Of a DNA stretch of 64,000 nucleotides, positions 26,067 to 43,671 are shown piece by piece. This DNA is from Rheinheimera riviphila. Its GTDB lineage: Bacteria; Pseudomonadota; Gammaproteobacteria; Enterobacterales; Alteromonadaceae. The stretch covers positions 62,001 through 126,000 of the forward strand of contig NZ_SACS01000008.1 in the NCBI RefSeq assembly GCF_004005945.1. Reading direction: 5' to 3'. Every line of letters starts with the position of its first letter. The stretch's first letter is position 1. The position numbers and the translations under genes were made by a program. Below the pieces are notes generated by a model. That model was not told where the DNA came from. It did not search any database and saw nothing but the letters and a program-made list of their open reading frames with translations.

Positions 26067-26094
26067 AAAAACTCCGCCATGCGGAGTTTTTTTT
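26067..26094 (+). terminator. Rho-independent terminator after fadR
   Basis: Stem AAAACTCCGC / GCGGAGTTTT with loop CAT and a run of eight T in total. Confidence 0.9.
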
Positions 26095-26216: not shown

Positions 26217-26245
26217 TTGTGACACAAAGCGGCTCTGCTTATGAT
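26217..26245 (+). promoter_or_regulatory. Sigma-70 promoter for the sulfur fusion gene
   Basis: TTGTGA (26217-26222), a 17-bp spacer and TATGAT (26240-26245). Transcription would start near 26252, leaving a leader of about 36 nt before GTG 26288. The rest of 26095-26287 shows no gene. Confidence 0.5.
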
Positions 26246-26287
26246 GTGCAGATATAAGCTATAGCATTCGGTTATAAGGGGCATTCA

Positions 26288-28549
26288 GTGTCTGGATCTA
26301 CGACCACCATCGCAGGGCTGCGCCAGCAAGAAGTTTATCTCGACAATAACGCCACCACGCCAGTGTTGCCTTGTGCAGCAGCAGCGGTACTGCATCATAT
26401 GCAAACTGTGTTTGGCAATCCCAGCAGTAGTCATAGCACCGGTATTAAAGCCAAAGTGGAACTGGAAACGACCCGGGCTTTGGCGCGGCAGGTGATTGGT
26501 GCCAGCAGTGGCCAGATTGTGTTTACCTCAGGTGCCACCGAAGGGATCCAGAGTTCGATTGTGTCAGCATTGCTCGATGCGCGTAGTCGCGGTTTAACTG
26601 GCCCTCAGGTGTGGTTATTGTATGGTGCAACGGAGCATAAAGCAGTGCCGGAAAGCCTGAAACACTGGAATCAGGTGCTGCAGCTCGGCGCGACGGTTAA
26701 AGCCATTCCGGTTGATCAACGTGGGTTATTGGATCTGGAGTTTATCCAAAGTCATGTTGCCAATGCGGCGATGATCTGCACCATGGCAGCCAATAACGAA
26801 ACCGGCGTCAAACAAGATTTAGCGGCGCTAGAGCAGGTGATCCGCAGCGTCAATCCGACGGTGAGCTGGATGGTCGATTGTGTGCAGGCCTTGGGTAAAA
26901 TGTCGCTTGATATTGCCAACACCAGCATCAATTACGCACCGTTTAGCGGGCATAAACTTTATGCGCCCAAAGGCATTGGCTTTTTGTATGTGCGCCATGG
27001 TGCGCCTTATCAGCCGCTGATTGCCGGTGGAGGTCAAGAAAGTGGGCTGCGTTCAGGCACGGAAAACTTACCGGGCATTGCTGCGTTACACGCTATTTTT
27101 ACCGAACTGCGTAAAACGACCGGTTCACTGTTTCAGCCCGAAACAGTTTTGTGGCAACACCGCGCGGCACTGCTGGATGCCTTGCGTCAGGTATTTCCGG
27201 CGATGGTGCTAAATAGTCAAGAGCCGGATATTGTTCCAACCACCATTAATTTTTCAGTGCCGGGTTTTTACAGTAAAGACATTATGGATTTGTTTGATGC
27301 GGCTAGTATCCGCATCAGTTCCGGCTCTGCCTGTAGTTCAAAAATTCCAACCAGTTTTGTGCTGGATGCGATGGGACTGCCGGCATGGCGCAGTCAAGGT
27401 GCGATCCGCCTGTCGTTTGGTCCGGCGATGACGCCGCAGGAATGTCAGCAAGCCTGTGCCGCCATTGGCCGGTTAACGGCAATCGTACAGCAATGTTGTC
27501 TGGTGCTGTCGGATGCACAGCCGCTGGCGGATTTAGCCATGAGTGGTCTGACGCAGTTAAAGCACGAAAATTTATGTAGTTATCTGCTGGTTTGTGCCGA
27601 CAGTCATCAAGCGGTGATTATCGATCCGGTGGCGCCGCTGGCCAATCGGCTGGCGAATATGGTGCAAGGGCAGGGTCTGCAACTGGTTGCAGTACTGGAC
27701 AGCCATTTACATCAGGATCGCAGTTCTGCCCGCGACGATTTAGCGGCGTTATTACCGCTGTCTGAACCGCAGCAAGTGGATGAACTTGGCTGGCCAATCG
27801 GCCGCGAACACATGAGTTGTGGCCAGTATCAATTGACGTCTCTGGCAACGCCGGGCCATAGCCACGACAGCCGCAGTTATCTGCTGCAGCAACACCAACA
27901 GACAGTCGCTGCTTTTGTCGGTGATTTATTGCTACCGGGCGGGATTGGTCGGCTGGATTTAGCTGGCTCGGAACCTTTGGCTTTTGCCAGCAGTGTCCGC
28001 ACGTTGTTGACGAAGGTTGGCGTGGATACGCTGTTATTGTCGAGCCATGATTATGCCCAGCGTTTTTTCACCACCTGGCGTCTGGCACAAGCAGAGCAAC
28101 CGCTGTTAACTGAAGTTATTCAGGCGCAGCGATGGTCCGCCGCCTGGACTGCCACGTTGCAGGCGCAAAGCGAGCAGCTTTGTGCAGCCAACAGTTACCA
28201 ATGTGGTGTGGTTGAAGTCAGCTGGTCTGATGCCAAAGCTGTGGTTGATGCGCCGCAAGTACAACAATTTTTGGCAGAATTTCCACAGACGGTAGTGGTT
28301 GATGTGCGCGAGCCTTATGAGCAAAGCGCTGGTCAGCTGGAACATTATCTGCCCGCAGGTGTGAATATTCAGCACTGGCCACTATCCAGGCTCTGTGATG
28401 CCTTGATTAGTTCAGCGTTAACGCCGGATCAACGGTTGTTATTGGTTTGTCGCTCTGGTAATCGCAGCCTGGTCGCGGCAAAAGTGCTGAACCGCGCCGG
28501 TTTTGCCGAAGTGTACAATCTCAAAGGTGGCGTGGCGATGTTAAGTTAA
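26288..28549 (+). CDS. Three-domain fusion: cysteine desulfurase, ETHE1-like persulfide dioxygenase, rhodanese
   Basis: A 753-residue single chain from GTG 26288, preceded by AAGGGG. Residues 1 to about 400 are a class V aminotransferase of the NifS/IscS type: the PLP lysine is Lys223 in FSGHKLYAPKG, stacking His117 is in ATEHKAV, and the persulfide-forming Cys349 is in SGSACSS. From about 410 to 625 comes a metallo-beta-lactamase fold close to ETHE1: HLHQDR (473-478), TPGH with His524, VGD with Asp546, GIGRLDL and SSHDY. His473, His524 and Asp546 match the iron ligands of ETHE1. The last residue of the usual HxHxDH is Arg478, which is not an iron ligand there. From about 640 a rhodanese follows with VVVDVREPYEQSAG and active Cys721 in CRSGNRS. 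The chain could mobilise sulfur from cysteine, pass the persulfide and oxidise it to sulfite. The domain order is inference into function. Confidence 0.9.
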   Translation: MSGSTTTIAGLRQQEVYLDNNATTPVLPCAAAAVLHHMQTVFGNPSSSHSTGIKAKVELETTRALARQVIGASSGQIVFTSGATEGIQSSIVSALLDARSRGLTGPQVWLLYGATEHKAVPESLKHWNQVLQLGATVKAIPVDQRGLLDLEFIQSHVANAAMICTMAANNETGVKQDLAALEQVIRSVNPTVSWMVDCVQALGKMSLDIANTSINYAPFSGHKLYAPKGIGFLYVRHGAPYQPLIAGGGQESGLRSGTENLPGIAALHAIFTELRKTTGSLFQPETVLWQHRAALLDALRQVFPAMVLNSQEPDIVPTTINFSVPGFYSKDIMDLFDAASIRISSGSACSSKIPTSFVLDAMGLPAWRSQGAIRLSFGPAMTPQECQQACAAIGRLTAIVQQCCLVLSDAQPLADLAMSGLTQLKHENLCSYLLVCADSHQAVIIDPVAPLANRLANMVQGQGLQLVAVLDSHLHQDRSSARDDLAALLPLSEPQQVDELGWPIGREHMSCGQYQLTSLATPGHSHDSRSYLLQQHQQTVAAFVGDLLLPGGIGRLDLAGSEPLAFASSVRTLLTKVGVDTLLLSSHDYAQRFFTTWRLAQAEQPLLTEVIQAQRWSAAWTATLQAQSEQLCAANSYQCGVVEVSWSDAKAVVDAPQVQQFLAEFPQTVVVDVREPYEQSAGQLEHYLPAGVNIQHWPLSRLCDALISSALTPDQRLLLVCRSGNRSLVAAKVLNRAGFAEVYNLKGGVAMLS

Positions 28550-28582: not shown

Positions 28583-28602
28583 AACCGCGCTGGTGCGCGG
28601 TT
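28583..28602. terminator. Terminator between the fusion gene and the chrR-like gene
   Basis: Stem AACCGCGC / GCGCGGTT, loop TGGT. The flanking A run (28578-28584) gives a T tract on the minus strand; on the plus strand the tract TTCTTGCTTTT is interrupted. Confidence 0.75.
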
Positions 28603-28651: not shown

Positions 28652-29335
28652 TTAGTAAAAGAACCGCTGCAACGGGTTCAATAACCGGGTCAGGCCTTGT
28701 TTAAATTCCAGCGGCGCGGTCAACACCGACAAACACAAACAGGGTTCATTGCTGATATTTTTCGGGGTATGGGTATGATCAGGCGTGTTGATAATCAAAT
28801 CGCCAGCTGCATATTTACCCATTTCGTCAACCATTTCGCCCGCCAGCACCAAGGTGATTTCCAAACCTTTGTGCGTGTGCAGCGGCACTTCGGTATTGGA
28901 TTCAATCAGTAACAACGACAGATGGTTATCATCGCCCGACGGCAATTTTGCGGTCGCGATGCCACCAAGCTGTAGCCACTTTTTCCGTTTTGCGGCCAGT
29001 CGCTGCAAGCTGCGCGGAATTTCAATCCGGTGTTGCCCTTGTTCGATATGGGTGGCGAACGTTTCGGGCGCTGTTGTTGCTGCTGTAACTTGGCTAGCGT
29101 CCGGGCTCAAAATTTGTTGTAGCATCTGTTGCCACTCTGCACCATCAGCATTAACCGCTTTTTGTTGTGCCAACTGACAACCGATATCGGCCTCGATGTC
29201 ATGTCGCAACTGCTGGCAATGCGGGCAAAAATCCAGATGTGCCGCGACCACCAGCGATAATTCGGCAGCCAGCGTGCCTTCGGTATATTGTTCCAGCAAA
29301 CTCAGGCTGGGATGGAATTTAACTGCGTGGGCCAT
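28652..29335 (-). CDS. ChrR-type anti-sigma factor (ZAS domain plus cupin)
   Basis: A 227-residue protein. The N-terminal zinc anti-sigma module carries His8, His33, Cys37 and Cys40 (HLDFCPHC), the same four-ligand pattern as ChrR. The C-terminal half is a cupin with VPLHTHKGLEITLVLAGE and a second metal-type region DHTHTPKN. In Rhodobacter, ChrR binds sigma E and releases it on singlet oxygen. Its start lies inside the end of the sigma gene (17-bp overlap), so the two are translationally coupled. Regulation by singlet oxygen or related oxidants is expected from the family, not shown here. Confidence 0.85.
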   Translation of the reverse strand: MAHAVKFHPSLSLLEQYTEGTLAAELSLVVAAHLDFCPHCQQLRHDIEADIGCQLAQQKAVNADGAEWQQMLQQILSPDASQVTAATTAPETFATHIEQGQHRIEIPRSLQRLAAKRKKWLQLGGIATAKLPSGDDNHLSLLLIESNTEVPLHTHKGLEITLVLAGEMVDEMGKYAAGDLIINTPDHTHTPKNISNEPCLCLSVLTAPLEFKQGLTRLLNPLQRFFY

Positions 29336-29915
29336 CGATTGCCTCTCTTAATCTGTCTAACGCCAACCGGATCCGTGATTTGACCGTGCCCAGCGGGATA
29401 CTTAATTGCTCGGAAACTTCCTGATGAGACAGCTCATCAAGATAAACTTTCTCCATCACCAACCGTTGTGCCGGTGGTAAAGCATGGAAATGAGGCGCAA
29501 TTTTTTCGGCGATCAGGTACAGGTCCCATTGTTGGCTATGGCTGCCTTCTTGTTCCGGATAGTCGCCGTCACTCCATAAATCGTCGGCGCTGATATCATC
29601 TTTGCGGCTTTGCTTTTTGCGCAACATATCAAAACGCACATTACGCGCTATGGTAAAAATCCAGGTCGAAGCACAACCGCGGCTGGCGTCGAACAGGGCG
29701 GCTTTTTGCCACACGTTCAGCATGGTGTCCTGCACCATTTCCATCGCTTGCTGCTCGTTGCCGAACATCTTGATGCCAAAAGCGCGCAAGCGTGGGGCAA
29801 AGTATTTAAACAACTCGGCATACAGTTGTTTATCGCGATGAATTGCGATCACATTTAACGCTTCTTCCCATTGGCCCAGAACGACAGTGGGGGTGGGGTC
29901 TTGCTGAACTATCAT
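29319..29915 (-). CDS. ECF sigma factor, RpoE/ChrR-type (ECF11-like)
   Basis: A 198-residue group IV sigma factor. I chose ATG 29915 (MIVQQDPT), seven bases after AAGG, rather than an in-frame upstream start. Region 2 has FGNEQQAMEMVQDTMLNVWQ and STWIFTIARNVRFDMLRK; region 4 has LSHQEVSEQLSIPLGTVKSR. It is cotranscribed with its ChrR-like anti-sigma and diverges from an azoreductase gene. The group label is from memory of sigma-anti-sigma pairing. Confidence 0.87.
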   Translation of the reverse strand: MIVQQDPTPTVVLGQWEEALNVIAIHRDKQLYAELFKYFAPRLRAFGIKMFGNEQQAMEMVQDTMLNVWQKAALFDASRGCASTWIFTIARNVRFDMLRKKQSRKDDISADDLWSDGDYPEQEGSHSQQWDLYLIAEKIAPHFHALPPAQRLVMEKVYLDELSHQEVSEQLSIPLGTVKSRIRLALDRLREAIDGPRS

Positions 29916-29968
29916 CGAGCTACCTTGAAGGGGAAATTCAACAGCATGATGACTGGTTAAGCCACATC

Positions 29969-30065
29969 GATCCAACATTATATCTTACCCTTAGCCACAC
30001 TTAACGGTGGCAAGCTGGTGCGCATTCCAATGTCAGGTTATACGCCGCATGAATGATGTTGGATC
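29969..30065. promoter_or_regulatory. Inverted pair of ATGTTGGATC boxes in the sigma/azoR divergent region
   Basis: GATCCAACAT at 29969-29978 and ATGTTGGATC at 30056-30065 are perfect complements 77 bp apart, one near each divergent gene. Each could be a promoter element or operator for its own gene. The region has no other strong sigma-70 signal that I can defend. Confidence 0.4.
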
Positions 30066-42494: not shown

Positions 42495-42648
42495 CGCCAG
42501 CGTCGGTATCTGCAGATTAATATGCATAAGTAATTGGTTATAAAGTGAAAATCACCGTTAACATCCGCAGTGAAACTGTTTACAACAGGTTGGAAACGTC
42601 AGTAAGATAACTGCAGAGTTTTCCGTGCCGTAGCCAAGGACTTTCACC

Positions 42649-43671
42649 ATGCTTCCGATTGAAATAACGACACCGCAAGCTGAACCAACCGGCGTGGCAC
42701 TAACCGCCAAAGAAACCCGCGCCATTATTACGCCTTACGCTTTTCATGTAGATCCCGAATTACTGGGCGTGCCGTTGGCGAGTCCAATACGGCGCGGTGT
42801 CGCCATGGCCATTGATGGCCTGATTGTGCTCGGTCTGGCCAAAGCCAGTTTGCTGGTGATGGTGCCGGTGTTAGCCTACCTGGTGTGGTTACGCCTTAAG
42901 GCGCAAAAGTATGTTCAGGTGTTGTTATTGCTGTTGGCCGGGTTTGTCGCCGTCGGATCGGCCGAATATGCGCCGGAGATATTGTTTGAAGCGCCGGAGA
43001 CGACCAGCTCTTCTAAAGAACTAGACGTTGAAACTTCTGTGCAAATTGGCTTGGCAGCGGTGGCAATGGCCAAAGAAAGTTGCCACGACGGTTGTGTCGC
43101 TAAAGAGCTCAAATCGGTGCGGCGGATGATGCAAAAACAACAGATTGACCGCGCCATGGCGACCGATGTGATGACTGGGCTACTGGAGGGCAGTCAGCTG
43201 AGCGAAGAACGCCAGGCTCAGATGCTTGACGAAGTGCTGAAACATTACCCGATGTCTGAGGCACAGGTTGCGGCAGTCGATGGTGTAAAGCAACAATTAC
43301 CGAACACCGAAGCCTGGTACGTGCCTGATCCAGAAACCAAAAGTATTATGGAGTGGGTGAACGGCGTGTTGCAGGATTTAGGCATTGGTTTTGGCTGGGC
43401 GGTGTTTTATTTTACCGCTTTTGTCGGTTGGACCAATGGCCAGACGATTGGCAAAAAGCTCTGTCAGATCCAAATTGTCCGACTGGATGGTGTGCCGTTG
43501 GATTTGTGGCAGGCCTTTAGTCGGCAGGGGGGGTATGGTGCTGGTTTTGCCACTGGTTTACTCGGGTTTTTGCAGATTTTCTGGGACCCAAACCGCCAGG
43601 CCATCCAGGATAAAGGCTCAGGTACCGTGGTGATCCGTTTAAATAAACCAAAACAGCCTTTGCATCATTGA
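42649..43671 (+). CDS. RDD family membrane protein with long internal domain
   Basis: A 340-residue protein starting at ATG 42649, with AAGGAC upstream. The RDD features are split: SPIRRGVAMAIDGLIVLGLAK near the N-terminus and WTNGQTIGKKLCQIQIVRLDG near the end. Between them lies a roughly 170-residue insertion with a helical, acidic character and two cysteines (CHDGC). The first helices are very hydrophobic (SLLVMVPVLAYLVWL). RDD proteins are membrane-bound, some transport-related; the insertion is not recognisable. It is 155 bp after the VWA gene, so cotranscription is uncertain. Confidence 0.78.
   Translation: MLPIEITTPQAEPTGVALTAKETRAIITPYAFHVDPELLGVPLASPIRRGVAMAIDGLIVLGLAKASLLVMVPVLAYLVWLRLKAQKYVQVLLLLLAGFVAVGSAEYAPEILFEAPETTSSSKELDVETSVQIGLAAVAMAKESCHDGCVAKELKSVRRMMQKQQIDRAMATDVMTGLLEGSQLSEERQAQMLDEVLKHYPMSEAQVAAVDGVKQQLPNTEAWYVPDPETKSIMEWVNGVLQDLGIGFGWAVFYFTAFVGWTNGQTIGKKLCQIQIVRLDGVPLDLWQAFSRQGGYGAGFATGLLGFLQIFWDPNRQAIQDKGSGTVVIRLNKPKQPLHH

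Follow-up and report, generated by a model that had tools for sequence, protein, structure and literature searches.

The window, by which we mean the whole 64-kb stretch of Rheinheimera riviphila DNA analysed here, carries on its forward strand a gene at 26288..28549 (stop included) that begins with GTG and encodes a single chain of 753 residues with three domains. The cysteine desulfurase domain comes first (26333..27448, +; residues 16-387); it is recognised by Pfam (Aminotran_5, E 1.3e-53) and, at scores below the cut-offs, by NCBIfam, and in a search of the AlphaFold model against the PDB it matches the NifS-like fold 1ecx at E 4.6e-30. An ETHE1-like metallo-beta-lactamase domain follows (27539..28132, +; about residues 418-615), placed by PDB sequence search, profile and fold, and the chain closes with a rhodanese domain (28277..28534, +; residues 664-749) that scores above its Pfam cut-off at E 1.1e-9. 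The middle domain is the weakest of the three by Pfam, where Lactamase_B covers only residues 515-574 (E 0.0096) with 16.3 bits, below the 22.7-bit cut-off. The first-pass annotation had proposed one 753-residue chain bearing desulfurase, ETHE1-like and rhodanese signatures, and indeed the reading frame is intact and every residue that it named is in place: K223 (codon 26954), C349 (27332), H473 (27704), H475, D477, R478 (27719), H524 (27857), D546 (27923) and, within CRSGNRS, C721 (28448). The frame is not a chance one, since all 22 Rheinheimera genomes examined match the fusion and dN/dS against the nearest relative, L006, is low; three of these matches are partial: G012 shows just 90 residues at the edge of a contig, G014 has the gene spread over two contigs, and in G016 the contig stops within it. 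The AlphaFold model has a mean pLDDT of 85.5 for the whole protein and 88.6 for the C-terminal half.

A hairpin resembling an intrinsic terminator lies 3' of the stop codon (28583..28602, +), a weak call with 2 such hairpins found against 3.6 expected in shuffles. In Rheinheimera-like loci the flanks are conserved, with FadR and a DsbB-like gene upstream and a pair that we take to be an ECF sigma factor and a ChrR-like anti-sigma factor downstream (28652-29978, - strand); the name DsbB-like is likewise our presumption. A further hairpin with A/T flanks directly 3' of fadR (26067-26091) looks terminator-like by eye, is unlisted by the terminator scan, and would divide the fusion gene from fadR. 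Pseudoalteromonas and Thalassotalea-like loci instead show an AI-2E transporter, glucose-6-phosphate isomerase and malic enzyme, with one representative scanned per cluster. Among the loci compared no partner gene, sulfur genes included, is common to the clades, and we rejected the conserved neighbourhood as a functional clue because the neighbours are kept in Rheinheimera-like loci only.

The two outer domains form the constant part of the protein. K223, C349, C721 and R726 are invariant across 141 complete relatives (103 rows plus 40 more, minus 2 truncated), whereas the metal triad of the middle domain varies, so that desulfurase and rhodanese make up an invariant core. The PLP lysine in SGHK and the catalytic-loop cysteine are thus both present in the desulfurase domain of all 141, and the rhodanese loop CRSGNRS fits CxxGxR. 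The best NCBIfam models for the desulfurase domain are NifS, DndA and IscS; among the 25 models listed out of 28, none reaches its cut-off (NifS 264 bits against 531). Selenocysteine lyases share this fold class and occur among the fold matches, and one might therefore read the N-terminal domain as a selenocysteine lyase or a cysteine sulfinate desulfinase; given the identity of the best models and a catalytic-loop cysteine in 141 of 141 relatives, we regard that as extremely improbable. The genome's own IscS (L002) is 35% identical to the fusion's desulfurase domain and scores above the IscS cut-off, whereas the fusion falls below it. A second desulfurase-like match (L003) is also present, as is a free type II/Blh-like dioxygenase (L132), which gives 353 bits to NF040641, below the cut-off, from model position 135 onwards. 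Because of these three proteins in the same genome, the fusion is probably not the sole enzyme for either step.

The nearest precedent for the core is CD-Rhd of Pseudorhodoferax sp. (WP_056898193.1), a proven bifunctional enzyme whose rhodanese cysteine accepts the desulfurase sulfur, according to the available text of PMC8931425. Like CD-Rhd, the fusion unites an N-terminal cysteine desulfurase and a C-terminal rhodanese, with both catalytic cysteines, in one chain; unlike CD-Rhd, it holds a third domain between them, the Pseudorhodoferax protein being a 54-kDa enzyme described as having two domains, with no occurrence of "lactamase" in the main text of that article (PMC8931425).

The first PDB sequence match of the C-terminal half is the dioxygenase-rhodanese fusion PRF of Burkholderia phytofirmans (BpPRF, 5ve3; E 7.6e-19), in an alignment that spans both domains. 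A profile built from 32 relatives ranks MxPDO (4ysb, 1.3e-34), Beggiatoa PDO (8zbd), the Arabidopsis ETHE1 protein (2gcu), 9rhq, human ETHE1 (4chl, 7.9e-30) and two PRF sequences as its seven top matches, all of which we take to be type I dioxygenases; lower down come CstB, the enzymes of type II and glyoxalase II (1e-17). Fold comparison of the AlphaFold model agrees, with PRF best, CstB and ETHE1 also found, and dioxygenases ahead of glyoxalase II. The earlier domain identities, the ETHE1-like iron triad and the nearness to PRF are supported, and C639 (28202..28204, +), the counterpart of the essential cysteine of type I persulfide dioxygenases in the BpPRF alignment, adds to their support. 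PRF (5ve3, 5ve4, 5ve5) shares the order dioxygenase then rhodanese and is the best match in sequence and fold, but it lacks a desulfurase, which in the fusion precedes the dioxygenase-rhodanese part in the same chain, carries CRAGGRS as its loop and keeps the third motif histidine. Superposed jointly on PRF, the two C-terminal domains of the model deviate by an rmsd of about 16 Å, so that either their placement differs from that in PRF or the model is unsure of it. CstB (3r2u) and Blh are likewise multidomain persulfide dioxygenase-sulfurtransferases, with a weaker match to the dioxygenase domain, and are not known to include a desulfurase.

In residue terms the R. riviphila protein has the 2-His-1-carboxylate triad H473/H524/D546 and also keeps R555 (codon 27950), D557, H587 (28046), Y589 and C639. 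With type I dioxygenases (ETHE1, MxPDO, AcPDO) it shares the triad and the counterparts of Arg163 and Tyr197 (R555 and Y589) and of the essential Cys247 (C639), as judged from the residues named in the available text of PMC6060420 and from the BpPRF alignment, where nsyqCG of the query falls on NLKCG. It departs from them in carrying R478 for the third motif histidine (S-H-L-H-Q-D-R where the type I motif is T-H-x-H-A-D-H), in apparently lacking the counterpart of AcPDO K212, the GSH-contacting lysine of type I, as seen by eye in the alignments, and in its place on the tree: with seven references, the middle domains of the fusions sit on their own branch (support 92/91) outside type I, with long branches. 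A tree that joins the fusions with the five type I references to the exclusion of the type II and GloB-like sequences is not rejected (p-AU 0.345). C639 is found in all 105 relatives with the triad and in 2 of the 36 without it, a co-occurrence that speaks for genuine dioxygenase chemistry in proteins whose site is intact; the link rests partly on deletion of the whole stretch, since position 639 is a gap in 33 of those 36.

One could also read the domain as a thioester or other hydrolase of the glyoxalase II kind, as GloB is its top NCBIfam model (E 4.3e-13) and 32 of 32 fusion members match both GloB and Blh at E 0.001. The GloB score of 49 bits is, however, far below the cut-off of 200.8, the dioxygenases beat glyoxalase II in both profile and fold searches, C639 is present, and the dinuclear HxHxDH motif ends in Arg478, so we consider a hydrolase very improbable. 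The same arginine had earlier been taken to fit a dioxygenase, as it leaves the iron ligands and removes a ligand of a dinuclear zinc site. The loss of the zinc ligand stands, yet the residue speaks against a dioxygenase, not for one: it occupies the position of AcPDO H62, and the H62A variant is inactive, as are D61A and H171A, while R139A keeps 0.4% activity (available text of PMC6060420).

These data bear directly on whether the R. riviphila protein is itself a full trifunctional enzyme that takes cysteine to sulfite (or thiosulfate) through three sites in series. The triad, R555, D557, H587, Y589 and C639 are all there, and dN/dS against L006 is 0.027 in the middle domain, with 0.032 in the desulfurase and 0.059 in the rhodanese. 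The third histidine is moreover not absolute, since the source that reports it as kept in type I and type II dioxygenases gives Phe or Tyr there in type III, with the two GSH-binding residues (counterparts R555 and Y589) conserved across all three types (PMC6060420, as far as its available text goes), and Arg478 could preserve an ion pair with Asp477 in place of the Asp-His pair. Against this stand the inactivity of AcPDO H62A and D61A, the free type II-like dioxygenase in the same genome and the rarity of the combination: of the 105 rows that bear the triad, just the R. riviphila protein and L006 combine R478 with D477 and R555, D477 with H478 occurs in 65 of the 105, and the congeners L007 and L008 have His at 478. 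We therefore consider dioxygenase activity of the R. riviphila protein doubtful given R478, and its being the complete three-step enzyme unlikely. The proposal that sulfur is channelled without release is not supported, as nothing shows channelling, the free dioxygenase is there and 36 of 141 relatives are without a metal site while retaining both other active sites. Elsewhere the site fares better: the triad with H475, D477, H478, R555, H587 and Y589 is complete in 64 of the 141 relatives, and we think that those with the complete residue set, such as the Shewanella proteins, are probably real dioxygenases. Residue 555, at the position of AcPDO R139, is Asn in 23 of 141, including L048 of Pseudoalteromonas.

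Whether the three-domain order is rare or widespread was a question left by the first-pass annotation, and it proves widespread, being present in many bacteria of marine and other aquatic habitats. In the family sample, a list compiled by hand, 126 of 295 genomes have the fusion gene; at a limit of E 1e-60, the order, phylum and class samples, with few candidates scored per genome, give 30 of 247, 5 of 299 and 1 of 369, the last being R. riviphila itself. The species-genome collection yields 293 confirmed stretches, the best 80 of which come from Rheinheimera, Alkalimonas, Arsukibacterium, Pseudoalteromonas, Thalassotalea, Thalassomonas, Shewanella, uncultured Colwellia and gammaproteobacterial MAGs. 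That annotation would have given up its idea had the order been both common and already characterised: common it is, but we found no description of it in the literature searched on such fusions, including the available text of PMC8931425, PMC6060420, PMC9774590, PMC12856154, PMC5823870, PMC11237513, PMC11408624, where a mention inside a paper or supplement is possible. Both two-domain fusions, CD-Rhd on the one hand and PRF/CstB on the other, are already known.

The triad varies among the relatives. It is present in 105 of 141 and absent from 36, of which 13 belong to g27, 14 to g29 and 7 to g11 (three genera with chains of about 580-720 residues), plus one each in G254 and G587; L037 and L044, cut at contig ends, are left out of the counts, and L046, on a short contig, also out of the tree. 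Mapped onto a midpoint-rooted tree of the desulfurase domain (140 rows), the triad pattern requires four changes, and strong branch support makes three of them unavoidable. A remnant of the middle domain survives in the g27/g29 clade, in G254 and in G587, all of which look like triad losses; the g11 proteins, about 600 residues long, have little of the middle domain that can be aligned and may have lost it or never had it. Since the position of the root is not fixed, one change may be a gain, and the pattern could reflect either losses throughout, four in number, or three losses plus a single gain. Selection has nonetheless been kept up: middle-domain dN/dS is 0.013-0.165 in the 21 of 25 pairs that yield a value (the other four are saturated), which indicates purifying selection in all 21, and is 0.013-0.049 in the three computable pairs without the metal site. 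Relaxed selection on the middle domain is thus not supported, and a metal-less middle domain still matters, presumably structurally. In one pair of Alkalimonas MAGs, L030 and L036, dS is 0.06 for the desulfurase domain against 1.31 for the middle domain and 1.58 for the rhodanese, a contrast that reflects either recombination within the fusion gene or a chimeric assembly.

This pattern bears on a reading in which the protein is a desulfurase-rhodanese transpersulfidase whose middle domain is purely structural in the R. riviphila lineage, sulfur passing to thiols, proteins or biosynthesis and not to sulfite. The 36 relatives without a metal site that retain K223, C349 and C721, the four triad changes on the tree and the low dN/dS of metal-less domains speak for it, as does a strong free-dioxygenase match (NF040641, E < 1e-60) in 34 of 35 family-sample genomes with a metal-less fusion, against 73 of 91 with a full-length-type one. 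The latter difference (Fisher p 0.023) is no proof, because kinship among the few clades is ignored, and it comes from hand-typed lists in which unlisted genomes were taken as lacking the gene and the 91 were classed by match type, not by individual triad. Joint retention of triad and C639 in 105 relatives, R. riviphila included, would be unexpected for a mere spacer, and we hold a purely structural role to be a real possibility, though not the one we would expect.

The upstream region offers a further view of the gene's role. A sigma-70-type promoter-like sequence, TTGTGA-17-TATGAT (26217..26245, +), matches at 9 of 12 positions, a weak signal alone since sites of that quality number 3 in the window against 2.2 expected; a similar layout is seen by eye upstream of the relatives' fusion genes. 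Directly 3' of its -10 hexamer lies a conserved 24-bp operator-like element, TATAAGCTATAGCATTCGGTTATA (26253..26276, +), followed by an RBS-like AGGGG (26277..26281, +; by eye) 6 nt before the GTG. The element stands out amid intergenic DNA that aligns poorly among relatives. A matrix built from 15 Rheinheimera/Alkalimonas sites, with a match defined as at most 1 of 60 shuffles scoring as well, detects it upstream of 47 of the 74 further fusion genes scored, a set sorted by hand into groups out of 139 (L114, lacking an anchor, is left out): 12 of 12 in Pseudoalteromonas, 8 of 8 in Thalassotalea-like genomes, 5 of 5 in Arsukibacterium and 13 of 22 in Shewanella, Colwellia and others, where the matrix misses the remaining 9. 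In metal-less lineages it is found in 0 of 10 regions of g27, 2 of 9 of g29, 6 of 7 of g11 and 1 of 1 of G254. A 25-letter consensus score, by contrast with the matrix that replaced it, separated poorly: 41 of 139 regions scored at least 13, as did 14 of 139 after shuffling.

Within the R. riviphila genome the 17-bp right part of the element resembles sites upstream of sulfur genes, with 0 of 1000 resamplings as good for cysT, 0 of 1000 for cysG-cysD and 6 of 1000 for cysJ; the full 24-bp matrix gives 1, 13 and 136 of 1000. For the upstream region of methionine gamma-lyase, the figures are 4 of 1000 with the 24-bp form and 239 of 1000 with the right part. All four regions were picked after a genome pattern search, a selection that biases the test, and the cysJ and cysG-cysD sites are not independent, as the search pattern was written after seeing both; the cysT and methionine gamma-lyase sites were recovered by that pattern with one mismatch each. 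Genome-wide, the pattern shows no excess (17 matches against 15 in a reversed control), and an earlier one gave 24 against 58 in the reversed control, with only the fusion's own site exact. For lack of such an excess, and because one coding-frame match (L212) scores equal to the cysT site, the likeness to the cysT, cysJ and cysG-cysD sites is no more than suggestive of sulfur-regulon control of the fusion gene.

Three other occurrences of the motif may be recorded. A weaker copy at 42519-42542 (score 7.2-7.5) precedes the ORF at 42649-43671 by 107 bp; a site just upstream of the methionine gamma-lyase gene (L211 1501-1524) hints at sulfur-regulon control of that gene as well; and a related motif with one mismatch (L219 1501-1517) sits between ahpF and a gene that we presume to be ahpC-like.

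As to the regulator, CysB is a candidate because PMC11329422 describes it as controlling cysJIH, cysK, cysP and other cys genes; half-sites of 19 bp are proposed there, and the consensus is termed very weak. According to the same text, CysB activates from sites 50-60 bp upstream and represses its own gene from sites spanning the transcription start (PMC11329422). Since the element would overlie the start region of the fusion gene, repression by this candidate regulator would be the likelier mode; what is observed is the conservation of the element.

From the domains, their residues and the conservation pattern described above, we infer the chemistry, the order of transfer and the metal as follows. 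The N-terminal PLP desulfurase would move the sulfur of L-cysteine onto Cys349, from which the rhodanese Cys721 would accept it and hand it to a small thiol or a protein, and these two steps would constitute the conserved core. The middle domain would be a divergent member of the type I (ETHE1-like) persulfide dioxygenases and, in proteins with a complete site, would use O2 to oxidise the persulfide so formed to sulfite; the R. riviphila protein retains the triad and the majority of the second-shell residues, and its dioxygenase activity is uncertain, with R478 in place of the second-shell histidine essential in AcPDO. We thus favour, at slightly better than even confidence, a persulfide enzyme with a desulfurase-rhodanese transfer core and an optional type I-like dioxygenase, probably under sulfur-regulon control. 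A stronger formulation would make the family a widespread trifunctional gammaproteobacterial enzyme that converts L-cysteine to alanine and sulfite (desulfurase to rhodanese to dioxygenase) under cysteine-regulon control, with a form reduced to desulfurase and rhodanese in several lineages that is nearly always accompanied by a free dioxygenase; we advance it tentatively, our confidence falling somewhat short of even.

Bacteria need to contain toxic cysteine and reactive persulfides, and the known routes rely on separate enzymes or two-domain fusions. The fusion described here occurs in well-studied Shewanella and Pseudoalteromonas, so that gene removals are practicable, and its natural series of complete, altered and missing iron sites allows one to test which step matters. 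If one polypeptide generates persulfide, carries it and, in many relatives, perhaps also oxidises it, it would show how such intermediates are contained.
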